The notes under the pieces are model-generated. The model was given only the letters and a program-made list of their open reading frames with translations. It made no database searches and was not told where the DNA came from. Shown here piece after piece: positions 11,460 to 20,910 of a stretch of DNA of 21,978 bases. The position numbers and the translations under genes were made by a program. How positions within the stretch are numbered: position 1 is the stretch's first letter; each line of letters opens with the position of its first letter. Source of the stretch: a virus; the IMG/VR virus record IMGVR_UViG_3300028802_000061, positions 1 through 21,978 of that record. The stretch is one strand, 5' to 3'.

Positions 11460-11658
11460 CGGGGAAATCCTCCGTTTGAAAATCATCGCCAAATTGCTCA
11501 ACACAGGCGGCACAGCCACAGTGCGCGCCCGTGCCGCGTTCGGTGTGGATCACGGCCATTTCCGCCGCCACATCATCGGGCGGGATCGGCGTCAGACGTC
11601 CCACCAGATAAACCTTGTCGGCGGCTTGCGCGGCATTGGGGATTTTAATGGTTGGCAT
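11443..11658 (-). CDS. Small cysteine-containing protein, unknown function
   Basis: The 71-residue product (MPTIKIPNAAQAADKVYLVG start) has three cysteines close together (HCGCAACVEQF, about residues 46-56) that could hold a metal or form disulphides. The start overlaps the fibre-2 stop (TAATG), and its own end overlaps the next gene. Position suggests it belongs to the fibre-terminase operon; a fibre chaperone is possible but there is no sequence evidence for it. Confidence 0.65.
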   Translation of the reverse strand: MPTIKIPNAAQAADKVYLVGRLTPIPPDDVAAEMAVIHTERGTGAHCGCAACVEQFGDDFQTEDFPDAAKV

Positions 11659-13412
11659 TACGCGCTCCCCGTGAAAGCCTGAATGGCCTGGTAATCATCA
11701 ATGCCGATAAGCTCCATCGAACAGGTAATGCGCGCCGTGGAGATACCCGTCGATCCGCTGGAAAGCGGCGTGACTGTCAGGTTCATTTGACCGGGCGGGC
11801 TTTGCACCAAGCCAACCGCGACATTGATCCCACACACACCGGCATTGACGCTTTGCGGGTGATGCGCGACTTGGATCATGCCAGCAAACACGATAGCGCC
11901 CGCAAAGCAGGAATAATTGCCGACAATCTCCCGGTACACGCTGGTATAGCCGGTGTTGCCGTCATCGTTGCTCGCCGTCACCTTGACGCGAACGCTGCAA
12001 GAAAAATTAGAAAGCTCAATCGGCCACTTGAAAGCGGTGACTTGGTTGTTGGCGGCAACGTGATCCTTGGTGGTGTGGCGCTTGCTGCCGCGCGATGCCG
12101 TGTTGTAAAGCTGGCCGTTGGTGTCCACTCGCAAGGTTTCGGTAAAGGGAGCGACGCTGCCTGCCGCGCCTGTGGCCGAATAATAAAGAAGGAATTGCCC
12201 GGCATCGAGACTGAGAGCGGAAACCGGATTGGCCGATTGCCGGATATGGCTTGCGCCGTTGAAATATGAGTTGGAACTCAGGACAAGTTGACCGCCCGCG
12301 TTGCTGGCATACAGCGCCGCCGTGGGGCCAAGCTGGAGAGCCTTGTACGCCGCACCCCATGCCGCTGGCACGACGCCCACGCCGAGAAAGCCGTTAATGT
12401 CCAACCGCAGCCGTTCGGTCAGCACCGCGTTCGCGCCCGCCGCGCCAGCGGGGGCGGTGTACCAAGTGTACGTCCCGCCGCCGCTACCGTTCATGCCCGC
12501 GCCACCGGCTGAAATCAGCTTCCAGTTCGCGCCGTCATAATAAAGATTGGAGCCGAGAAAGACGCCCGCATTGCCGACCGCGCCAAAGACTGAGCCAGCC
12601 GCGCCAAGGACAAGCGCCTTGTTGCCCGCGTCCCAAGCATCTGGCGCGCGGCCAATGCCGAGATTGCCCGTCATGGTGTCGCCAGCCTTGGAGACTTTGC
12701 CGGTGGAAAGGGTCAGCGCCGCCGCATCGACATACTGTTTCGTCGCCGCCCCCAACGGCGCGGCGGGATCAGCCGACAGCAGCAGCAGCCCCGTCATGGC
12801 GTCGCCAGCCAGGGCAACGCCGCGCTGCCAGCCCAGGGCAAAGCGCCCATAGAGCAAGCCGTCATTCGGCGCTTCAGTAATCATGCCCGCCGCCGACATC
12901 GAAGCGGCGACAAAGGCTGTCGTGGCAATCTGGGTGGTGTTGGTGCCGGTGATAGCGGTGGGCGCGGTTGGGACGCCGGTCAAATTAAGTGACGGTCCCA
13001 GCTTGGAAGACGTGACGCTGGCATCGGCCAGCTTGGGGGTCGTGACCGCGAAATCCAGAATGTGGCCGGTCTGCACGGAGAGCGGCGCGAGCCGGTTGCT
13101 ATCGACCGAATTGATCCCAAGCTTGGCGGTCGTCACACTGGCATCGGCCAATTTCGGCGTGGTGACGCTCAAATCCTGAAGGGTGCGGGTGCTGACCGAA
13201 AGATCGGCAAGTTTCGGTTCCGTCACACTGCCATCGGCCAGCGACGCCGTGGTGATCAGACCATCTTTCAGCCCGCCGTCATCTCTTTGGATAAGAGCCA
13301 AACGATCAATGGTTTGATCGGTCGTCACCTTCACGCGGTCGAAATCGACATTCAGCGGCGGGGTGGCCGCGTAGTCGTAGCTCTTGATATATTTGGTGGG
13401 AGGGCTGGACAT
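11658..13412 (-). CDS. Tail fibre 2 (paralogue of fibre 1)
   Basis: The 584-residue protein begins MSSPPTKYIKSYDY and has the same N-terminal organisation as fibre 1. QTIDRLALIQRDDGG is followed by about eight irregular repeats of the kind VTTPKLADASVTTAKLG (residues about 55-140), then a shared block (PTAITGTNTTQIATTAFVAA, ITEAPNDG, YGR). After about residue 210 it diverges into Gly/Ala/Asn-rich shaft segments with the pattern ETLRVDTNGQLY, typical of trimeric phage fibres. The last 110 residues carry a cysteine-containing beta-rich region that differs from fibre 1 and is presumably the receptor-binding tip. The start has GGAAG nearby; the 76-aa gene lies just upstream. Confidence 0.85.
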   Translation of the reverse strand: MSSPPTKYIKSYDYAATPPLNVDFDRVKVTTDQTIDRLALIQRDDGGLKDGLITTASLADGSVTEPKLADLSVSTRTLQDLSVTTPKLADASVTTAKLGINSVDSNRLAPLSVQTGHILDFAVTTPKLADASVTSSKLGPSLNLTGVPTAPTAITGTNTTQIATTAFVAASMSAAGMITEAPNDGLLYGRFALGWQRGVALAGDAMTGLLLLSADPAAPLGAATKQYVDAAALTLSTGKVSKAGDTMTGNLGIGRAPDAWDAGNKALVLGAAGSVFGAVGNAGVFLGSNLYYDGANWKLISAGGAGMNGSGGGTYTWYTAPAGAAGANAVLTERLRLDINGFLGVGVVPAAWGAAYKALQLGPTAALYASNAGGQLVLSSNSYFNGASHIRQSANPVSALSLDAGQFLLYYSATGAAGSVAPFTETLRVDTNGQLYNTASRGSKRHTTKDHVAANNQVTAFKWPIELSNFSCSVRVKVTASNDDGNTGYTSVYREIVGNYSCFAGAIVFAGMIQVAHHPQSVNAGVCGINVAVGLVQSPPGQMNLTVTPLSSGSTGISTARITCSMELIGIDDYQAIQAFTGSA

Positions 13413-13414
13413 GG

Positions 13415-13645
13415 CTAAACCACTTCCGGTTCGACAAGGACGGGTTCAAGACCAAGCTGGGCGAGCCGCGCCGCCGTGTAGGGCCGTGGCTGGTGGTTCT
13501 GGTTGACCGCGATGGCGCCGTTCATCCACTCCCAGATGAAGCGCCGGGTGAAGCGATCTTCCATCGAAAGCGGGAGGCTCCAACCGTCATCGCGCGTCAC
13601 AATGCGAAACGGCCCGCCGACATTGGCAATGACATAGCTGTGCAT
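13415..13645 (-). CDS. Small protein between the two fibres (possible fibre accessory)
   Basis: The 76-residue product (MHSYVIANVGGPFRIVTRDD start, ending PVLVEPEVV) has aromatic and charged residues in its centre (RRFIWEWMNGAIAVNQNH) and no signal or membrane segment. It starts two bases after the fibre-1 stop, and fibre 2 follows it by two bases. Small genes after fibre genes often encode assembly chaperones, so that is a plausible role, but no chaperone family is recognised. Confidence 0.65.
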   Translation of the reverse strand: MHSYVIANVGGPFRIVTRDDGWSLPLSMEDRFTRRFIWEWMNGAIAVNQNHQPRPYTAARLAQLGLEPVLVEPEVV

Positions 13646-13647
13646 CG

Positions 13648-15621
13648 CTACAACTCCGCATCAAAGGAGAGAGAGGACGCCGCATTATTATTGGCCGAAA
13701 CAAACCCCGATGTGTTGGCGGTAAAGCCGCCCACCGTGGTTACTGCCAAGCCCGCGCCATGCTGGCTCTGTTCGCCGCCCGCCAGGGCCGGGGTCGCCGC
13801 CGAACCACCGCCACCATTGACAAAGCGGAACGTCCCGGCAACTTGAAGCGCCGGGAAATTGCGCATCACCACCGGGTACGGCAGCACCATATAAGCCTGA
13901 TTGGAATTGATGAACGTCGCCACGCCGAGTTCGGCGTAAGACTGTCCGGCCAACCACTTCCAGAAATAACGCTGGCACTTGGCGAGCGTGGTAACAAACG
14001 TATCCGCGACAAAAGGCGTGGCGACGTTGCCAATCTCGATCTTGACTTTCCCAAGATGAAACTTGTTTCCCGCCGCCCCCCAAATCCGCGCGCCGCCCTG
14101 CAAGCCGACAGCCAAGCCCGCGCCCGACGCCGCCCAGGCGCCCGCCGAGGCTGGCCGGTTGTTGTTCGCGCCGCAGCCCAAATCCCACCAGACCCGCAAG
14201 CCGCGACCGGAGGCGTCAAGCCATGTCCCCGCCATATCGCCGGGGATGGTGACGCTCTTTTGCTCAATGGCATTTGCCACATTGATGGTGTAACTCGCCA
14301 TGTAATAGCGATCACCAGCGGCATTACCGAAAGACAAACCAAAGGTGCCGACAATGTTGGAACTGACAAGAAAGCTAACTGTGATCGGCTTTGCGATGGC
14401 ATAGCCAAAAAACGCTTCGGCAAAATCAACGCCTTCAACGCAATACTGGATACCGGAATAATCCGTCACATCGGGCGGCACGGCGGCGGTGTTGACGAGA
14501 TAGCGCAGCATATAAGGGGTTGGCGCTCCGGCGTGATAGCACTGAATATCCGCCGAGAGGTTATCGGTCAGGGACCGGGCGTAAGCGTTCCAGCGATCCG
14601 CGATCCAACCATTCGTCGCGCCAGCGCCGCCAATGGTGGTCTGGACATAGGACCGCCGCTGATCCGCCACGCAATCGCCGTTGATAACCAGATTTTTATT
14701 CGGCACGCCGGGGAAGTTGCCGGTGATGCTGCCGGTCACATTTACATCACCGCTGAAGTCAGCGTCTTTGGCGAATAGTTTTTTCCAGCGCAGGGCTGCT
14801 GTGCCCAAGTCATAAAGAATGTTCGCGCCGGGATTGTGGGCCGCAGATGCCAGCGCCGCAAAGCCGCTGTCGTCCGCGAGCCGCGCTTGCAATTCGGGGC
14901 CGTTGGATTTGAGCGCGGCGAAAGCCGCTGTGCTGCCACCCAGCTTTAGAGCCGGGAGAACTAAAGGCCCGGTCATCACATCGCCCGCCAGCTTGACGCC
15001 AAGCTGCCAGCCCAAGGCTTGCCGCCCGTAAAGAGCGCCATCGTTTGGCGCTTCGGTGATCATCCCTGCCGCACTCATTGATGCCGCCACAAAAGCCGTG
15101 GTGGCAAGCTTGGTGGTGTTGTCGCCGGTATTGGGGGTTGGGGCTGTCGGCACACCGGCCAGGGCGAGCGATGGCGCGAGTTTGGCCGAAGTGACAATGC
15201 CATCACCCAGATCGACCGTGGCAATGGAGCCATCGACTATCTTTGAACTGTTGATGCTGTCGTTGGCGATGTTGGAGCCATCGACCGCCGCGACACCGAT
15301 ATGAGAGTGAACCACCGCGCCAGCCGCGATCTTGGATGGCCCGACCGCGCCATCCGCGATCTTGGGATTTGTCACCGCGCCATCGGCAAGCTTCGGAGTG
15401 GTGACGGCGCCATCAGCCAAATTCGATGTGCCGATGACATCCCGCAGCCCGCCGTCATCGCGCTGAATTAAAGCGAGACGGTCGATGGTCTGGGTGGTTG
15501 TGGCGAGAAGCCGGTTCAGTTCCTGATCGACTGATGCCCCCGGCAAGGGCTTTTCAGGATTGGTCGTGGCGTACTGTGTGAAATCGAAATAGCGAAGATA
15601 TTTGGTTGGAGGGCTAGACAT
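13648..15621 (-). CDS. Tail fibre 1
   Basis: A 657-residue fibre protein. N-terminal residues 1-60 (MSSPPTKYLRYFDFTQYA; QTIDRLALIQRDDGG) are presumably the virion attachment module, as they are shared with fibre 2. Residues about 65-150 form imperfect 10- to 11-residue repeats (LADGAVTTPKLADGAVTNPK), likely a trimeric shaft. A common block to about residue 215 follows, then a unique C-terminus with NKNLVINGDCVADQRRSY, a motif type frequent in phage fibre tips. An SD-like GGGAGAGG lies 12 to 15 bases from the ATG, somewhat far. Transcription probably begins in the gene-free region just upstream, which holds a candidate operator. Confidence 0.87.
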   Translation of the reverse strand: MSSPPTKYLRYFDFTQYATTNPEKPLPGASVDQELNRLLATTTQTIDRLALIQRDDGGLRDVIGTSNLADGAVTTPKLADGAVTNPKIADGAVGPSKIAAGAVVHSHIGVAAVDGSNIANDSINSSKIVDGSIATVDLGDGIVTSAKLAPSLALAGVPTAPTPNTGDNTTKLATTAFVAASMSAAGMITEAPNDGALYGRQALGWQLGVKLAGDVMTGPLVLPALKLGGSTAAFAALKSNGPELQARLADDSGFAALASAAHNPGANILYDLGTAALRWKKLFAKDADFSGDVNVTGSITGNFPGVPNKNLVINGDCVADQRRSYVQTTIGGAGATNGWIADRWNAYARSLTDNLSADIQCYHAGAPTPYMLRYLVNTAAVPPDVTDYSGIQYCVEGVDFAEAFFGYAIAKPITVSFLVSSNIVGTFGLSFGNAAGDRYYMASYTINVANAIEQKSVTIPGDMAGTWLDASGRGLRVWWDLGCGANNNRPASAGAWAASGAGLAVGLQGGARIWGAAGNKFHLGKVKIEIGNVATPFVADTFVTTLAKCQRYFWKWLAGQSYAELGVATFINSNQAYMVLPYPVVMRNFPALQVAGTFRFVNGGGGSAATPALAGGEQSQHGAGLAVTTVGGFTANTSGFVSANNNAASSLSFDAEL

Positions 15622-15996: not shown

Positions 15997-16563
15997 CTAT
16001 TCGGCTGCTGTCTTCTCAGGTTGGGCATTAACTTGGGCATCAATGGTCTGCCCAGGTGAAGGCAACGCCGCAGCCGCCTGAAGGATAGCGGCGCCCTGAT
16101 GGCACACAGCCTCTAATTCTGCGCGCGTCATTTCCCCCAGGCTTTTTACTCCCGGCGCCTGGGAAGCTTCTAAGCCTGTGCTGCGCGCCTTCTCAATTCG
16201 CACGCGGTCCACAATGCCAGAGTATTCGACAATGCGTGACGCAATATCTCCGCGCAATTTGAGCGGCGCTGCTTTGTCGCCAATGATTTCACGCATCACA
16301 CCAATAGCTTGCGCAGTTAATTGAACGCCGATTTCTTCACGCAATGCCGCGTCTATTGCAGCGCTTACGTGAGGAAGGCGAACCAACCGCCAACCGATTT
16401 CCGCCGCTGTCGCTGCGCTATAACCGGCTGCAATAGTGCTTTGCTTCACTTTTCCAGAATGTTCGCCCCTGACAAATTCGCGAACAAAAGCAGCCTGTTT
16501 CTCCGTCAACTCTCCGTGTACGGATTTGTCGCCTTCCTCGCGAACAATTATTTGTTTTGACAA
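15997..16563 (-). CDS. terS: Terminase small subunit
   Basis: The 188-residue product should recognise the packaging start site and recruit the large terminase. An N-terminal LTEKQAAFVREFVRGEHSGK is followed by QSTIAAGYSAATAAEIGWRL and LPHVSAAIDAALREEI, the classic DNA-binding helix-turn-helix and linker of the TerS (terminase_2) family. A helical centre and a Pro/Ala/Gln-rich tail follow. The reading frame has no upstream ATG; the start is TTG at 16563-16561 with GGGA about nine bases before it. That start lies inside an operator-like sequence, so binding there could block its expression. It is separated from the large subunit by the fibre genes. Confidence 0.88.
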   Translation of the reverse strand: MSKQIIVREEGDKSVHGELTEKQAAFVREFVRGEHSGKVKQSTIAAGYSAATAAEIGWRLVRLPHVSAAIDAALREEIGVQLTAQAIGVMREIIGDKAAPLKLRGDIASRIVEYSGIVDRVRIEKARSTGLEASQAPGVKSLGEMTRAELEAVCHQGAAILQAAAALPSPGQTIDAQVNAQPEKTAAE

Positions 16564-16604
16564 TTTGTATTCCCGGCTGGTAGTGAAGGACTGTTGCTAT
16601 TCTA
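16557..16604. promoter_or_regulatory. Divergent promoter/operator region between terS and the early genes
   Basis: Rightward, a perfect -35 hexamer TTGACA lies at 16557-16562, but the -10 at 17-18 bases is poor; an extended -10-like TGCTATTCT at 16595-16603 is an alternative. Leftward, TAGAAT (16604-16599) is a five-of-six match to a -10 for terS, without a clear -35. A third, variant operator-like site (ACAATTTGTATT, 16560-16571, 11 of 12 matches to the other copies) overlaps the TTGACA and the terS start codon. Exact promoters cannot be fixed by eye. Confidence 0.4.
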
Positions 16605-16659
16605 ACGCAACATTCCGCCGGACGCTAAACCGGCCTAACCTACTGACGGAGAATAAAAA
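16592..16659 (+). repeat. Cassette 0: hairpin leader of the first early gene
   Basis: TGTTGC (16592-16597) pairs with GCAACA (16607-16612). GCCGG (16617-16621) pairs with CCGGC (16630-16634) around ACGCTAAA. The second hairpin has the CGG...GCTAA...CCG form shared by most of the downstream cassettes. ACGGAG and the ATG at 16660 follow. Confidence 0.65.
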
Positions 16660-16932
16660 ATGACTACCAATTCCATCCAGAGCGGCGCAGGCGGCACCAT
16701 CTTCAGCGGCCCCTTGGGCGTGAATATCTATCGCGCGACTGTCATCGCTTCGGCGCTGAAGCTGTACGCAAACACTGGCATGAAGGCGAACCGCGCCTAT
16801 ACGCCGTCCAATATGTTGGCGGCTGCGACTGAAATCACTGGCATCAAGTTCAAGCGCGGCGAATATCTCAAAGCAGCCGAAGCGCTGAAGGCTTGGGCGC
16901 GTGACAATGCCCTGACCATCGCGAAGGACTAG
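16660..16932 (+). CDS. Early-region small protein, unknown function
   Basis: The first gene of the rightward block encodes 90 residues: MTTNSIQSGAGGTIFSGPLG, then VNIYRATVIASALKLYANTG and a basic helical end (AAEALKAWARDNALTIAKD). The segment after residue 40 (KANRAYTPSNMLAAATEITG) has the look of a compact helical phage accessory protein; similar sequences occur in other phages by memory, without known function. The ATG has ACGGAG twelve bases upstream inside cassette 0. Its TAG stop is the first codon of cassette A. Confidence 0.8.
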   Translation: MTTNSIQSGAGGTIFSGPLGVNIYRATVIASALKLYANTGMKANRAYTPSNMLAAATEITGIKFKRGEYLKAAEALKAWARDNALTIAKD

Positions 16933-17025
16933 CCACAGCTAAAGCAGCGTCCTTTGTGGCGCTGCTTTGACGGTTGCTAAACCGGCACGCTGAATATCAG
17001 CGTGCAACCCACGGAGAAAAAACCA
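16930..17025 (+). repeat. Cassette A: three-hairpin intergenic element
   Basis: Starts at the stop codon TAGCCACAGC. H1: AAAGCAGCG/CGCTGCTTT (16941-16949 with 16960-16968). H2: CGGT-TGCTAA-ACCG (16971-16984). H3: GCACGCTG/CAGCGTGC (16985-16992 with 16998-17005). Then CCCACGGAG and a GTG start. GGTTGC (16972-16977) can alternatively pair with GCAACC (17004-17009). Confidence 0.85.
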
Positions 17026-17316
17026 GTGTTCATTTTTGACGATAGCGAATTGACCCAGACTGCCGAAGCAATCCGCGCCTTAAACCCGCACGCAGCCGCC
17101 TATCCCCTCGAAAGCCTGATTTCGCACATGAAAGGAAGCGCCGCGATTGCCTACCCGAACGAAGGCGATAACGGCTATGTGTCCACCCTGGGTTATGTGC
17201 TGACCATCTGGACTTCTAAGGACACTGGCGCGCGGCATGTGAAGGCTTCGGTTTCTTCCTATACCGTCATGCAAGGCCTGAAGGCTTTCAAACCGCGCGC
17301 CAAAGCTAAAGCCTAG
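17026..17316 (+). CDS. Early-region small protein, unknown function
   Basis: I start this gene at GTG 17026 because it sits nine bases after ACGGAG, exactly where the ATG lies in the other cassettes; an in-frame GTG at 17002 would fall inside hairpin 3. The 96-residue product (FIFDDSELTQTAEAIRALNP; then YPNEGDNGYVSTLGYVLTIW and a basic tail FKPRAKAKA) mixes helix and strand and has no recognised motif. The basic end may contact nucleic acid. TAG is the first codon of cassette B. Confidence 0.78.
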   Translation: MFIFDDSELTQTAEAIRALNPHAAAYPLESLISHMKGSAAIAYPNEGDNGYVSTLGYVLTIWTSKDTGARHVKASVSSYTVMQGLKAFKPRAKAKA

Positions 17317-17408
17317 CCACAGCCTATCCCGCGTCCAATGTGGCGCGGGATATACGGTTGCTAGACCGGCGCCCTGGTAGTCATGGCGCAACCCACGGAG
17401 AAACTAAA
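17314..17408 (+). repeat. Cassette B: three-hairpin intergenic element
   Basis: TAGCCACAGC stop. H1: TATCCCGCG/CGCGGGATA (17325-17333 with 17344-17352). H2: CGGT-TGCTAG-ACCG (17355-17368). H3: GCGCCCTG/CATGGCGC (17369-17376 with 17382-17389), with one mismatch. ACGGAG and ATG follow. GGTTGC/GCAACC alternative pairing is present. Confidence 0.82.
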
Positions 17409-17801
17409 ATGCGTTTTGAAACTGTTTGGCAATTTAAGACCGCGCAATTCCGCGTCGCGCTTGAAGCGACCTATGACGACGACTGCGATTTGTCTTTTGA
17501 CGACACTGGCGAAACCCGCGCCAATATCAAAAGCGGGTTGTGGACGCCCTATCTGTTCAAGGTCGCGGTTTATGATCTGACTAGCGGCAATGAAATCGGC
17601 GCCGACTATCTGGGCGGTTCTATCCACGAAAACGCATCAGATTTTATTGACCATCGCGAAGTTGGCAAACAGAACCGCGAATATGCAGCCCAGGGCAATG
17701 CCGCGCGTTGCGGTTCCTATTTCCATGACATGATCAAAGGCGCCATTGCAGAAGCGCGCAAAAACTACAGTGTCCCGCGCCCCAAGCTTCGCCACCTTTA
17801 G
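17409..17801 (+). CDS. Early-region conserved-type phage protein, unknown function
   Basis: The 130-residue product begins MRFETVWQFKTAQFRVALEA. It contains VAVYDLTSGNEIGADYLGGS and a helical C-terminus (CGSYFHDMIKGAIAEARKNY). This FETVWQFKT...EIGADYLGG...GSYF..M...AI.EAR layout occurs in hypothetical proteins of other phages and prophages as I recall; no biochemical role is known to me. It is acidic in the middle (YDDDCDLSFDDTGE). The ATG is preceded by ACGGAG in cassette B; the upstream open frame (from 17340) covers cassette hairpins and is not coding. Its TAG begins cassette C. Confidence 0.82.
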   Translation: MRFETVWQFKTAQFRVALEATYDDDCDLSFDDTGETRANIKSGLWTPYLFKVAVYDLTSGNEIGADYLGGSIHENASDFIDHREVGKQNREYAAQGNAARCGSYFHDMIKGAIAEARKNYSVPRPKLRHL

Positions 17802-17895
17802 CCACAGCCTAGACCCAGGCTCGCACCCTGGGTCTATACGGTTGCTAGACCGGCAAGCTGATGAACAGCTTGCAACCCACTACGGAGAATACAAA
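17799..17895 (+). repeat. Cassette C: three-hairpin intergenic element
   Basis: TAGCCACAGC stop. H1: TAGACCCAGG/CCTGGGTCTA (17810-17819 with 17827-17836). H2: CGGT-TGCTAG-ACCG (17839-17852). H3: GCAAGCTG/CAGCTTGC (17853-17860 with 17866-17873). TACGGAG and ATG follow. GGTTGC/GCAACC alternative pairing is present. Confidence 0.85.
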
Positions 17896-18087
17896 ATGTC
17901 ATTCCATACCAAAGCCTTTGGAAGCATCGCGATTGCGGCCTGTGTCGCCATTTCTGCAATGGTGCTTTGTGCCAGTGATCCCGGCTATACGCCTTTGCTG
18001 GCTTCCCTGATGGCGCCCTATGCCCTGTTGCTTGGCGTTGTGGCTACCCTGTCTTATGGCTTCGACCTTGTGACGGGCGCGCAGTGA
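17896..18087 (+). CDS. Small membrane protein
   Basis: The 63-residue product (MSFHTKAFGSIAIAACVAIS start) has two hydrophobic stretches, about residues 9-27 and 33-53, separated by a short polar turn (ASDPGYTP), so a two-pass inner-membrane hairpin is likely. There is no holin motif beyond this generic topology. Small two-pass proteins in early phage regions may modify the envelope or act in lysis, but nothing here decides. ACGGAG precedes the ATG in cassette C. The stop overlaps the next start by one base (TGATG), so the two are coupled. Confidence 0.78.
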   Translation: MSFHTKAFGSIAIAACVAISAMVLCASDPGYTPLLASLMAPYALLLGVVATLSYGFDLVTGAQ

Positions 18088-18395
18088 TGGCCTATCAACC
18101 CAAGCGATCCCGTGCCCAATTTTCCAAAGGCGCACCGGCCCACATTCTGGCTTGCTACGATAACGGCGCCAAAACAATCGACCGCTATACGGTCTTAATC
18201 GGTGCCCCTTTTTGGTGCGATTATATGGGTCGCGATGTGCCCTATATCGCCATGAGTGACGCGCCCACGCATCCACAAGGCTTTTCACAATGGGGCGAAA
18301 TGCCTAGCGCCAATCGCGCGGCATGCGGAAAGCATGTGGCTTGGCTTGATCTGCCCGAACACATCCGCGCCCATGTGATCGCCCGCACAGCCTAG
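18087..18395 (+). CDS. Early-region conserved-type phage protein, unknown function
   Basis: The 102-residue product includes ILACYDNGAKTIDRYTVLIG, then DVPYIAMSDAPTHPQGFSQW and LDLPEHIRAHVIARTA. The DRYTV...VPY.AMS..PTHPQGFSQWGE...LPEH....I pattern is one I recall from many phage and prophage hypothetical proteins, with no known activity. No cassette separates it from the small membrane gene; it begins by TGATG overlap and so relies on coupling. Its TAG is the first codon of cassette D. Confidence 0.83.
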   Translation: MAYQPKRSRAQFSKGAPAHILACYDNGAKTIDRYTVLIGAPFWCDYMGRDVPYIAMSDAPTHPQGFSQWGEMPSANRAACGKHVAWLDLPEHIRAHVIARTA

Positions 18396-18490
18396 CCACA
18401 GCTAAAGCCTGGGCACATTGCCCAGGCTTTGACGGTTGCTAGACCGGCAAACTGGATACCAGTTTGCAACCACTACGGAGAAAAACCACC
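18393..18490 (+). repeat. Cassette D: three-hairpin intergenic element
   Basis: TAGCCACAGC stop. H1: AAAGCCTGGGC/GCCCAGGCTTT (18404-18414 with 18420-18430). H2: CGGT-TGCTAG-ACCG (18433-18446). H3: GCAAACTG/CAGTTTGC (18447-18454 with 18460-18467). TACGGAG, AAAAACCACC and ATG follow. GGTTGC/GCAACC alternative pairing is present. Confidence 0.85.
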
Positions 18491-18889
18491 ATGCCAGAAT
18501 TTATTTTACCGGGAAACTCAGATGAGCGCTTTGCCGCTCTAGACCCCTTTATTCAGGGTTACATAGAAGCGCTTTTTTTCACCTGTGAGGAAGAACTTGG
18601 CGACAAAGGGTTTAGCGATCTTGACCCCGCGACCCTGGGCGAAATCCTGACCACCTGTGAAGCCTTTCAAATGGCGGCGGCTGATCTGCTAACCGAAGCC
18701 TATACCCGCGACTATGACGCCACCCAGGCGGGGCGCGATTATTGGTTTACCCGCAACGGTCACGGTGTCGGCTATTGGGACCGCAAGCAATTAGACGGCG
18801 CCCTGGGCGAAGCCTTGACCGCACGCGCCAAAAGCTTTGGCGAAGTGTGGGCCTATGAAGGCGATTGCGGCAAGATTTTCATTTCCTAG
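18491..18889 (+). CDS. Early-region conserved-type phage protein, unknown function
   Basis: The 132-residue acidic product begins MPEFILPGNSDERFAALDPF and includes IQGYIEALFFTCEEELGDKG. It ends with an aromatic-rich segment (DYWFTRNGHGVGYWDRKQLD) and FGEVWAYEGDCGKIFIS. The GYIEA.F...E...L......YW.TRNGHG.GYWDR layout is familiar from hypothetical proteins of diverse phages; I cannot assign a function. The ATG is twelve bases past the ACGGAG motif of cassette D. Its TAG starts cassette E. Confidence 0.83.
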   Translation: MPEFILPGNSDERFAALDPFIQGYIEALFFTCEEELGDKGFSDLDPATLGEILTTCEAFQMAAADLLTEAYTRDYDATQAGRDYWFTRNGHGVGYWDRKQLDGALGEALTARAKSFGEVWAYEGDCGKIFIS

Positions 18890-18982
18890 CCACAGCTAAA
18901 GCCCAGGGCGCCCGATGCCCTGGGCTTTGACGGCTGCTAGGCCGTGCTGGAAATAATTCCAGCAAAAACCACGGAGCGAAAA
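18887..18982 (+). repeat. Cassette E: variant three-hairpin intergenic element
   Basis: TAGCCACAGC stop. H1: AAAGCCCAGGGC/GCCCTGGGCTTT (18898-18909 with 18917-18928). H2: CGGC-TGCTAG-GCCG (18931-18944), a compensatory change from CGGT/ACCG. H3: TGCTGGAA/TTCCAGCA (18945-18952 with 18957-18964), unrelated in sequence to the other H3 stems. ACGGAG and ATG follow. The GGTTGC/GCAACC alternative pairing is lost here. Confidence 0.83.
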
Positions 18983-19423
18983 ATGAAAAATACCTGCATC
19001 CCCACGCTATTGAGCGCGGGCATTAGTTGGGATGATGCGCACGCCTTGCGGCGCATTTCCATGACGCTGCAACGCTGGCACGAACTTGAGTGCGGCGACG
19101 GAAACGACCATGCGTCGTGGACGATTGCGCGCGGCGCCTTTGTCAAAAAGGACGGTGTGAAAACCTTTGAGCATGACGAAGACGGCAAGCCTTTTAGCGA
19201 ATACCACCCGCACAGGGGCGCCGTGTCCTACACGCCCATTCCTGACCGTGAGAAGGGCGCTAAGAAGCGCTTGGCCGCGATCCTGGCACGCTATCCCGGC
19301 TTCCGTTCCTACATCCAAGGCGACCCGCGCGGCGCCGCGCTGTACATCCTGCGGCCTGATGATTTGCCTATGGGCCGTGACATTGACTGCACCTATTCCA
19401 ACGGCATCGCGGTGTACAAATGA
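18983..19423 (+). CDS. Early-region conserved-type phage protein, unknown function
   Basis: The 146-residue product includes HALRRISMTLQRWHELECGD, then PFSEYHPHRGAVSYTPIPDR and YIQGDPRGAALYILRPDDLP. This LRRI.MTL.RWHE.ECGDGN...YIQGDPRGAALYILRP signature is, as I recall, widespread in phages, with no established role. The ATG at 18983 follows the cassette-E ACGGAG; an earlier in-frame ATG would lie in hairpin 3. The stop overlaps the next start (ATGA), so no cassette is needed there. Confidence 0.85.
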   Translation: MKNTCIPTLLSAGISWDDAHALRRISMTLQRWHELECGDGNDHASWTIARGAFVKKDGVKTFEHDEDGKPFSEYHPHRGAVSYTPIPDREKGAKKRLAAILARYPGFRSYIQGDPRGAALYILRPDDLPMGRDIDCTYSNGIAVYK

Positions 19424-19605
19424 TCACCAATCAACCCGACCTTCGCGCGGCGTTCTGGCGCGATCATCCGCAATACACGCGGCGCCCCGGTTGGACGCAG
19501 AATAACTACCCCGCCGATATTCGCGTGGAATGGGTTGCCTTTGTTGATCACATGAACCGCGTGGGGGCTATCAGCGACGCCTTGGCTTCGCGCGCCACGC
19601 TCTAA
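19420..19605 (+). CDS. Small early-region protein, unknown function
   Basis: The 61-residue product (MITNQPDLRAAFWRDHPQYT start; then IRVEWVAFVDHMNRVGAISD) is translationally coupled to the preceding gene by ATGA. It has aromatic and charged residues and a likely C-terminal helix, and no recognised motif. The pattern LR.AFW..HP looks like a conserved small phage protein, recalled rather than searched. Its stop is TAA, unlike the TAG used before cassettes A-E and G, and the junction after it is the shorter cassette F. Confidence 0.75.
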   Translation: MITNQPDLRAAFWRDHPQYTRRPGWTQNNYPADIRVEWVAFVDHMNRVGAISDALASRATL

Positions 19606-19676
19606 GGGTTGGAGTTAATGCCCAGGGCGCCACGCCCTGGGCATTGGCGGCAATCCTGCCGATACGGAGAAAAACC
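19603..19676 (+). repeat. Cassette F: short two-hairpin form
   Basis: Begins with TAA rather than TAGCCACAGC. H1: AATGCCCAGGGCG/CGCCCTGGGCATT (19617-19629 with 19633-19645), 13 bp with a three-base loop. H2: CGGCA-ATCC-TGCCG (19648-19661). There is no H3; TACGGAG and AAAAACC then lead to ATG. Confidence 0.78.
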
Positions 19677-19964
19677 ATGAACGCACACACACCAGGGCCT
19701 TGGATTATTGACCCTGACGCCACCCTACCGCTTGCCGTTATCCGCTTGTCTAGCGATGAAAACGTGGACGGTGACGGCATCTGCGAAATAGGCGAACGCA
19801 CGCCACAGAACGAAGCTGACGCGCGCCTGATCTGTGCGGCGCCTGATCTGCTGGCGGCGGCTGTAGATTGCATCTCCTGCGCCGATGCCGCCGACTATGA
19901 CAGTATGTTGAACGCATTGGACGCCTTGCGCGACGCCATCACCAAAGCCAAGGGTGACGCATGA
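19677..19964 (+). CDS. HTPGPW-type small phage protein
   Basis: The 95-residue acidic product begins MNAHTPGPWIIDPDATLPLA and carries NEADARLICAAPDLLAAAVD before a C-terminal helix. The HTPGPW opening together with the ADARLI.AAPDLL segment marks a very common phage hypothetical family; its function is unknown to me. ACGGAG precedes the ATG in cassette F. It ends in KGDA, and the last codons carry GGTGACGC directly before the next ATG, an arrangement copied at the end of the following gene. Confidence 0.85.
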   Translation: MNAHTPGPWIIDPDATLPLAVIRLSSDENVDGDGICEIGERTPQNEADARLICAAPDLLAAAVDCISCADAADYDSMLNALDALRDAITKAKGDA

Positions 19965-20248
19965 CCGCCCCTACAGATTGGATGTGGGACCGCCACCCTG
20001 GCGGGCTGCATTATGTGATGGAATTAGACCGTTCAATTGTCGCCACCATTGACGCCAAACGCCAACGCCCAGGCAATACCGCGCGCTTTATCGCGGCTGG
20101 GCCTGAAGTGTTTGCCGCGCTGCTGGATACGCTGCATGAATTGAAGCTCTATAGCGTGGATGTGGACGACGACGATTTGCGCGCCACTATCGCTAGGGCG
20201 AACGCTGCTATCGCCAGGGCACGCACAACCCCCAAAGGTGACGCATGA
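19961..20248 (+). CDS. Small early-region protein, possible diverged paralogue of HTPGPW gene
   Basis: The 95-residue product has MTAPTDWMWDRHPGGLHYVM at the start and ARFIAAGPEVFAALLDTLHE in the middle, which parallels ADARLICAAPDLLAA of the preceding gene. Length, KGDA ending and junction DNA also match, so an old duplication with divergent N-terminus is likely. It starts by ATGA overlap and is coupled at its end to the RMF-like gene by the same overlap. Function unknown. Confidence 0.8.
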   Translation: MTAPTDWMWDRHPGGLHYVMELDRSIVATIDAKRQRPGNTARFIAAGPEVFAALLDTLHELKLYSVDVDDDDLRATIARANAAIARARTTPKGDA

Positions 20249-20427
20249 CCAAAGCAGAGCGCGCGGCCTATGGCATGGGCTGGCATGTGGGCCGCTGCGG
20301 CGCCCCGACGCGCCTATGCCCTTACACGCGCGGCTCTAGCCTGTGGCGCTGCTGGCAAGAGGGGCACGCCAACGGCGCCGCCGCCAAGGCCAAGACAGCA
20401 CAGCAAGGCGGGCCGACCGCGTTCTAG
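20245..20427 (+). CDS. Ribosome modulation factor (RMF)-like small protein
   Basis: The 60-residue product contains AYGMGWHVGRCGAPTRLCPY then SSLWRCWQEGHANG. E. coli RMF has GYQAGIAGRSKEMCPY then SQWLGGWREAM; shared features are the spaced glycines, CPY and the W..(G/C)W pair. RMF binds the 30S subunit and drives formation of inactive 100S ribosome dimers. Family members, or look-alikes, exist in phages and alphaproteobacteria, often uncharacterised. Whether this one hibernates host ribosomes is inference. It is coupled to the preceding gene by ATGA. Its TAG opens cassette G. The last 15 residues are low-complexity. Confidence 0.7.
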   Translation: MTKAERAAYGMGWHVGRCGAPTRLCPYTRGSSLWRCWQEGHANGAAAKAKTAQQGGPTAF

Positions 20428-20497
20428 CACCAGCCTGGGCCGCGTCGCTAAGGGCGCGGCCCATACGGGCGCTAATGTCCGCAGGAGAAAAACCACC
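20425..20497 (+). repeat. Cassette G: short two-hairpin form
   Basis: TAGCACCAGC stop. H1: TGGGCCGCG/CGCGGCCCA (20436-20444 with 20455-20463). H2: CGGGC-GCTAAT-GTCCG (20466-20481) with one G-T pair. There is no H3; CAGGAGAAAAACCACC then leads to ATG, the only full AGGAG in the series. Confidence 0.78.
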
Positions 20498-20590
20498 ATG
20501 TCAGTTAGTCTTTTTCATTGGGGCATGTATGCCATGTTTACCGCTATGGGCTTTCTCATTGGCCGCGCGAGCAAGGACAACGGGGGGTAG
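20498..20590 (+). CDS. 30-aa single-pass membrane micro-protein
   Basis: The product starts MSVSLFHWGMYAMFTAMGFL and ends IGRASKDNGG: one hydrophobic segment at residues about 5-22 followed by a short basic, polar tail that should stay cytoplasmic. A good AGGAG lies twelve bases upstream at the end of cassette G, the best evidence that this micro-gene is translated. Size and topology fit small phage membrane proteins, including spanin- or holin-related and toxin-like peptides, but no family is identified. Confidence 0.6.
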   Translation: MSVSLFHWGMYAMFTAMGFLIGRASKDNGG

Positions 20591-20627
20591 CGGCGTGAAC
20601 AACGCTATTCAAACTTGAAGAACCACC

Positions 20628-20723
20628 ATGCCCCAAAATGAAACATCCCCCTGGCGCGGGCTGGCCCTGGCCCTGCTGTTGATTGTGGCCGGTGTCGTGC
20701 TAGGCAGCATTAGCGGGCTTTAA
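20628..20723 (+). CDS. 31-aa single-pass membrane micro-protein
   Basis: A second micro-gene encodes MPQNETSPWRGLALALLLIV and AGVVLGSISGL: a polar N-terminus, then one hydrophobic helix of about 20 residues to the end. It shares the ACCACCATG start context with two cassette-preceded genes, but only GAAG is available as ribosome-binding site. The large hairpin and terminator follow, so it is probably the last gene of the operon. Function unknown; it might pair with the preceding membrane peptide. Confidence 0.5.
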   Translation: MPQNETSPWRGLALALLLIVAGVVLGSISGL

Positions 20724-20726
20724 ACA

Positions 20727-20776
20727 TGCGCCTGTGCGGCCTTGCGGACCCTCCGTTCTGCAAGGCCGCTGGCGCA
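20727..20776 (+). other. Large imperfect hairpin after the early operon
   Basis: TGCGCC (20727-20732) pairs with GGCGCA (20771-20776). GCGGCCTTGC (20736-20745) pairs with GCAAGGCCGC (20760-20769). The apex can form a small CGGA/TCCG hairpin. The structure is almost as stable on either strand and lacks a T-run; it may protect the 3' end of the early mRNA. Confidence 0.65.
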
Positions 20777-20779
20777 TTA

Positions 20780-20813
20780 GGGGGCGGGTCTTAGCAACCC
20801 GCCCCCGCCTTTT
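20780..20813 (+). terminator. Intrinsic terminator of the early operon
   Basis: GGGGGCGGGT (20780-20789) pairs perfectly with ACCCGCCCCC (20797-20806) around a seven-base loop, followed after three bases by TTTT. It lies between the last early micro-gene and the HTH regulator and separates the two transcription units. Confidence 0.78.
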
Positions 20814-20846
20814 GCCAGTTTGTCAATGGTCTTTAGGTCCAATACG

Positions 20847-20866
20847 GCTAACCCACTGCTAACCCA
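20847..20866 (+). repeat. Tandem 9-bp direct repeat GCTAACCCA, 11-bp spacing
   Basis: GCTAACCCA occurs at 20847-20855 and 20858-20866, one helical turn apart, upstream of the regulator promoter. It also resembles the GCTAAACC of the cassette H2 loops. Confidence 0.5.
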
Positions 20867-20910
20867 GAAAATTTGTCCCTTTGCCTTGAAATGTGTACGG
20901 TACGGGCGAA

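Follow-up and report, generated by a model that had tools for sequence, protein, structure and literature searches.

A repeated RNA element with conserved pairing and a probable second fold between the early genes of a virus

The virus record IMGVR_UViG_3300028802_000061 contains a run of small early genes (e1 to e12) joined in part by a repeated element, and this locus raises the question of what is conserved among the copies and what the element might do at gene boundaries. The window, by which we mean the whole stretch of DNA that was analysed, is one entire virus record of 21,978 bases. A sequence-only reading had proposed that seven junctions of the run and the leader of its first gene carry an element of common design, and direct reading of the junctions and their repeats located copies A to G and a leader copy, L, where they had been placed (Table 1). 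At the seven junctions, which lie within 16930-20498, the element starts with the stop codon of the gene before it and reaches the ribosome-binding site of the gene after it; the first gene carries a copy in its leader. Copies A to E share an exact head, TAGCCACAGC, followed by hairpin 1 (hp1), hairpin 2 (hp2; CGGYTGCTARRCCG), hairpin 3 (hp3), and ACGGAG; copies F and G possess hp1 and hp2 and lack hp3, and G has the head TAGCACCAGC and AGGAG. The TAG of the head is the upstream gene's own stop codon in A to E and in G. The reading had described the full form of A to E correctly in its head, hp1, hp2, and ACGGAG; its 8-bp third hairpin is 8-9 bp long in A, C, D, and E and does not apply to B, where hp3 comprises 5 + 2 bp around a mismatch. 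We found hp3 in the window phage only.

The placement of the element within the gene run is regular. All seven non-overlapping junctions of e1 to e12 carry a copy, and the four junctions free of it (e4/e5, e7/e8, e9/e10, and e10/e11) are all overlaps of start and stop codons. No homology was detectable among the e1 to e12 proteins, so that duplication of genes does not account for the repeats. Single copies folded with z-scores of -2.2 to -6.6 against dinucleotide shuffles (D, -6.6), and a separate computation gave -6.7 for copy F. The element pattern matched five times in the forward direction of the window and not at all in a backward control.

The arms of the hairpins diverge from copy to copy while their pairing is maintained. 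We built a covariance model, R1, from window copies C, D, and E and six copies from outside the window (named below by locus, L, or genome, G). R1 recovered the held-out window copies A (E 2.6e-7), B (E 7.2e-6), and G (E 2.5e-6) and found copies in prophage-like contigs of T7 type, its match to locus L252 having an E of 5.7e-9; it missed leader copy L, which is thus a degenerate copy. In an alignment of 18 R1 matches, representing 17 distinct copies, all 202 of 202 hp1 and hp2 cells are paired, 8 of the 12 pairs are changed on both sides, and 32 two-sided cells occur versus 6.7 in shuffles, with slid partners pairing at 21-51%; the alignment was fitted to R1 and leans to that structure, although slides and shuffles still fall far below it. 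The non-Watson-Crick cells in these hairpins comprise nine G-U and no A-C, as would be expected of pairing in the sense RNA strand. The proposal that structure rather than sequence is kept is thus borne out by covariation in the homologues, and hp1 and hp2 are well supported as conserved pairing.

Three hairpins standing side by side, as the reading had drawn them, represent one fold of this RNA, but the picture is incomplete, since the conserved head, taken as unpaired, can pair with hp2, namely with its 5' arm and its loop. The lowest-energy fold contains this pairing in copies B, G, and F. Across the alignment, head positions 1-4 and 6-7 are complementary to the hp2 loop and 5' arm in 92.9% of cells, the first pair being T-A or C-G and the sixth A-T, C-G, or T-A; 14 cells are two-sided versus 5.8 after shuffling, and slides pair at 25-63%. 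Divergent copies form the same fold with other letters, as in F (AGGGTTG:CAATCCT), G030_6 (AGCGT:ACGTT), G001_2 (CAG..CGG:CCG..CTG), and G001_4 (CGTC.CGG:CCG..GACG). Constrained folding of 21 distinct classes gave a Fisher P of 2e-6, and for copy F shuffled heads were as good at P 0.006. When 21 distinct copies were read in a fixed, bulge-free register outward from hp1, 149 of 231 levels paired, compared with a mean of 91.5 (maximum 120) for heads with shuffled letters and 125.1 for heads swapped between copies, 0 of 5000 swaps being as good; for the divergent copies alone the values were 72 versus 61.6 (P 0.002). Under constrained folding the predicted energy gap between the two folds is at most about 2 kcal/mol in many copies, and the second fold, a single rod, is favoured in F, L162, G030_2, G030_5, and G001_6; these energies are predictions, and the copies are not independent of one another. 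Because the 5' arm and loop of hp2 have two possible partners, their own 3' arm or the 10-nt head, the RNA is probably bistable, with a two-hairpin form and a form that is a single rod some 20-25 levels long. Mismatches between head and hp2 recur at levels 2, 4, and 7 outward from hp1, roughly every third position (for example in copies A, D, and G). Two other arrangements were set aside: the alternative pairing GGTTGC:GCAACC of copies A to D is absent from E, and a simple pseudoknot, with hp2 intact and the head paired to its loop, is less likely, given that the hp2 5' arm is a further partner of head positions 6-7 and that A to E have a loop of just four bases.

The element is not confined to the window phage. 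G001, whose major capsid protein (MCP) is 74% identical to that of the window, carries the same general design in other letters at about six early junctions; in the equally close relative G002 (74% MCP identity) the element is absent. A pattern based on hp1 led to the prophage-like contigs L098 and L099, and other patterns led to L139, L162, and L252. L098 and L099 encode a T7-type terminase and have many proteins in common with the L139 and L252 records (G030 and G032). The window phage shares little protein with this group, and G031, the source of L162, shares little with either, so the bearers of the element fall into two or more unrelated phage groups. In L098 the head is preceded by a TGA stop (TGA-TAGCTACAGC), so TAGC is kept not merely as a stop codon. 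A scan free of sequence requirements (a stop codon, then 6-19 nt, two hairpins separated by a short linker, and a ribosome-binding site) gave seven matches in the window, all inside the array, and found arrays in G001, G028, G029, and G030, including new G030 copies of different sequence. Among 373 loci scanned, arrays with three matches inside 4 kb were confined to the phages just named and to L097, which is near-identical to G001. Sixteen comparison genomes yielded no array and 0-4 scattered chance matches each; such matches are commoner in genomes of high GC content, for example Mae-Yong, so that density alone is no evidence, whereas sequence likeness and arrays are. An exact-motif search in near relatives, a phage-wide BLAST of the elements, and pattern scans of bacterial genomes returned chance-level matches only, and two further viral pattern scans added no member. 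The early genes differ among the element-bearing phages, and the neighbouring genes are unrelated.

What might such an element do? We tentatively favour an intercistronic, bistable RNA that cuts or insulates the polycistronic early mRNA at gene boundaries. In one state the two hairpins would stand side by side, and each would cap a message: hp1 at the 3' end of the one upstream, hp2 at the 5' leader of the one downstream. In the other, hp1 would be flanked by a helix between the head, next to the stop codon, and the hp2 5' arm and loop, so that the whole forms the rod of some 20-25 levels with single mismatches. A terminating ribosome has the stop codon in its A site, and its footprint would cover the head, with hp1 at the leading edge, which suggests that the fold is a read-out of translation termination: while a ribosome is ending the upstream gene it would hold the two hairpins, and the rod would form when no such ribosome is present. 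The rod is as long as a two-turn double-stranded RNA substrate of RNase III, which would make cutting or insulation of the early mRNA the likeliest job. The leader of the first gene contains an hp2 homologue with no gene before it, which ties hp2 to the downstream message and its 5' untranslated region. Termination reporting, rod size, and the leader hp2 together lead us to favour processing or insulation, through which the polycistronic early mRNA would become units that are translated and decay separately, as in T7.

The nearest working analogue is the intergenic RNase III site of T7, whose early region contains such sites for processing of the polycistronic early mRNA. Like these sites, the window element is a structured RNA reaching from stop codon to ribosome-binding site between successive early genes, with a helix of about two turns and internal mismatches. 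It differs from them in having a second, competing fold, which to our knowledge is not known for T7 intergenic RNase III sites, and in repeating one architecture that also occurs in non-T7 phages; moreover, cutting is here something we only infer. As for the usual features of an RNase III substrate (a helix of about 20 bp or more, with small internal loops), a rod of about 20-25 levels is predicted and is clearly favoured in some copies only.

Several observations speak against a bistable processing element. Few lineages are represented, and copies within one phage are related, so that part of the changes is inherited. Copy L098a favours two hairpins over the rod, head-arm energies are weak copy by copy (Fisher 0.03), and most copies with a GCTR loop gave P values of 0.1-0.4 in constrained folding; the hp1 borders used there and in the fixed-register test were set by hand. 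It is the size of the rod, and nothing further, that points to RNase III. When the head was masked, the ribosome-binding site did not become consistently more or less accessible, and no translational read-out was found. A more ambitious version of the processing model appears rather doubtful. In it the element is a serial termination-sensing switch: a ribosome, on leaving one gene, would set the fold, translation would thereby decide the processing or expression of the next gene, and the module would have spread through unrelated phages with its sequence rewritten and its two pairings kept.

Other functions have been weighed on the same evidence. The best conserved sequence lies in hp2 (CGG..GCTR..CCG), which every junction and the leader carry shortly before the start site, as would be expected of an operator at which a phage or host RNA-binding protein, recognising hp2 and its GCTR loop, switches the translation of many early genes together. 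Such an operator is unlikely, since the loop sequence is lost in F, G001, and some G030 copies while pairing stays; and a shared trans-acting protein was rejected, the only families common to the element-bearing groups among the matches listed being integrase, RusA, and tail fibre. Restriction of the element to genes that do not overlap, its absence from coupled junctions, and its extent from stop codon to ribosome-binding site would suit a purely translational device, insulating cistrons or controlling termination-reinitiation so as to decouple them, with no cutting of RNA. This too we regard as improbable, because masking the head left both the ribosome-binding site and the start codon without a consistent change in accessibility. 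That result also argues against riboswitch-type sequestration of the ribosome-binding site; CCG can pair with the CGG of ACGGAG in B, E, and F, but this is not general.

It is distinctly unlikely that the element is chiefly a recombination joint for the shuffling of early genes, in which the stop-to-start repeat provides shared sequence and structure is secondary. Two G001 copies (minus strand, 42067 and 42458; locus L076) are near-identical from stop to start codon between different genes, suggesting that the whole element was copied or converted recently, and the differing early genes of the bearers, together with the presence of arrays in G001 and not in G002 at equal MCP identity, fit such a role. 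A joint needs similar sequence, yet the arms diverge while pairing stays, and it does not require two competing pairings; shuffling could be a side effect rather than the function. A transcription attenuator, pause site, or anti-Rho structure might also be suggested by the strength of the hairpins, which lie in untranslated gaps of the early operon, but is very unlikely: no hairpin is followed by a U-run, and a terminator scan found no terminator-like site in any element. A promoter scan of 16400-20900 gave a single promoter-like match, inside a gene and below the shuffle mean, and none in the elements. A sigma70 promoter or intrinsic terminator was rejected on these grounds, a promoter for a phage RNA polymerase was rejected because the arms vary freely, and the non-T7-like bearers (the window phage and G001) argue against such a promoter as well, and a role as transcription promoter or terminator is unlikely overall.

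As far as present tools show, the family appears to be new. In the window region none of the Rfam 15 families matched at E<=1, and on the homologous loci there was only an unrelated weak isrG match elsewhere in L098; a literature search found no such elements. Such a family of structured RNAs, present in two or more unrelated phage groups, would be undescribed; each cistron boundary would carry a two-state design that can be tested, and the family offers a possible route to seeing uniform post-transcriptional control of many small, fast-exchanged early phage genes. The covariance model can be used to annotate otherwise anonymous early regions. Bistable leader RNAs of the trp attenuator type have one strand with two exclusive partners, of which one can be reached by a ribosome. 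The window element resembles them in this respect and differs in lying after a stop codon between cistrons, in lacking a terminator hairpin, and in being repeated in series. For comparison with integron attC sites, which fold on the bottom strand and carry GTTRRRY/RYYYAAC core sites, the G-U and A-C counts argue for the top strand, and the core sites were sought by eye only. The PeSLs of T4, as summarized in PMC4503421 (citing Arbiol 2010 and Comeau 2014), are composite promoter-terminator motifs; on that account they too are stem-loop cassettes that recur among small early genes which change fast, and may help gene shuffling; they differ from the window elements, which contain neither early promoter nor terminator. 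In cluster K mycobacteriophages, the start-associated sequence and its extended form (SAS/ESAS) comprise a conserved 13-bp stretch, GGGATAGGAGCCC, with 17-bp imperfect inverted repeats; they recur just upstream of non-structural gene starts, about half of them having inverted repeats with a variable spacer (PMC3203893). The window element also lies just upstream of start codons, but its first letters are at the upstream stop codon and it is pairing, not sequence, that is maintained, and the junctions contain neither GGGATAGGAGCCC nor 17-bp repeats, in agreement with the earlier view that it is not SAS or ESAS.

Table 1. Positions of the element copies and of the early gene run in the window
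Feature	Position	Strand	Components
Leader copy L, before first early gene	16592..16651	+	hairpin 16592-16612; hp2 homologue GCCGG(ACGCTAAA)CCGGC 16617-16634; ACGGAG 16646-16651
Copy A	16930..17016	+	head/stop 16930-16939; hp1 16941-16968; hp2 16971-16984; hp3 16985-17005; ACGGAG 17011-17016
Copy B	17314..17400	+	head/stop 17314-17323; hp1 17325-17352; hp2 17355-17368; hp3 17369-17389; ACGGAG 17395-17400
Copy C	17799..17887	+	head/stop 17799-17808; hp1 17810-17836; hp2 17839-17852; hp3 17853-17873; ACGGAG 17882-17887
Copy D	18393..18480	+	head/stop 18393-18402; hp1 18404-18430; hp2 18433-18446; hp3 18447-18467; ACGGAG 18475-18480
Copy E	18887..18976	+	head/stop 18887-18896; hp1 18898-18928; hp2 18931-18944 (compensatory CGGCT/GGCCG); hp3 18945-18964; ACGGAG 18971-18976
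Copy F, without hp3	19603..19669	+	stop TAA and head 19603-19616; hp1 19617-19645; hp2 CGGCAATCCTGCCG 19648-19661; ACGGAG 19664-19669
Copy G, without hp3	20425..20487	+	head/stop TAGCACCAGC 20425-20434; hp1 20436-20463; hp2 CGGGC(GCTAAT)GTCCG 20466-20481; AGGAG 20483-20487
Early small-gene run e1-e12	16660..20588	+	genes joined by element (7 non-overlapping junctions) or start/stop overlap

In the related, T7-type L098, L099, L139, and L252 (G028, G029, G030, and G032), the element lies among small genes near repressor-like and integrase-like genes, and the integrase-like protein indicates that these phages are probably temperate. On the minus strand of L099, at 2445-2520, a copy has a disrupted hp2, and other sequence stands where the next gene would be expected; it looks like a decayed junction.

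The window probably represents about half of a genome, its closest named relatives being about 48.7 kb in length. Its terminase and MCP are nearest to those of Microcystis phage Mae-Yong1326-1 and Rhizobium phage RHph_N65. Structural genes run leftwards and the small early genes rightwards from 16660, with the terminase small subunit gene adjoining the early region; seven early genes tested against Pfam gave no match. Past the last small gene, at 20724-20820, are two strong hairpins, the second of which (GGGGGCGGGT..ACCCGCCCCC) is followed by GCCTTTT and is a possible terminator of the early run. At 11658-15621, two tail-fibre genes adjoin each other, and several of the same tail-fibre families were matched near the N-terminal parts of both.

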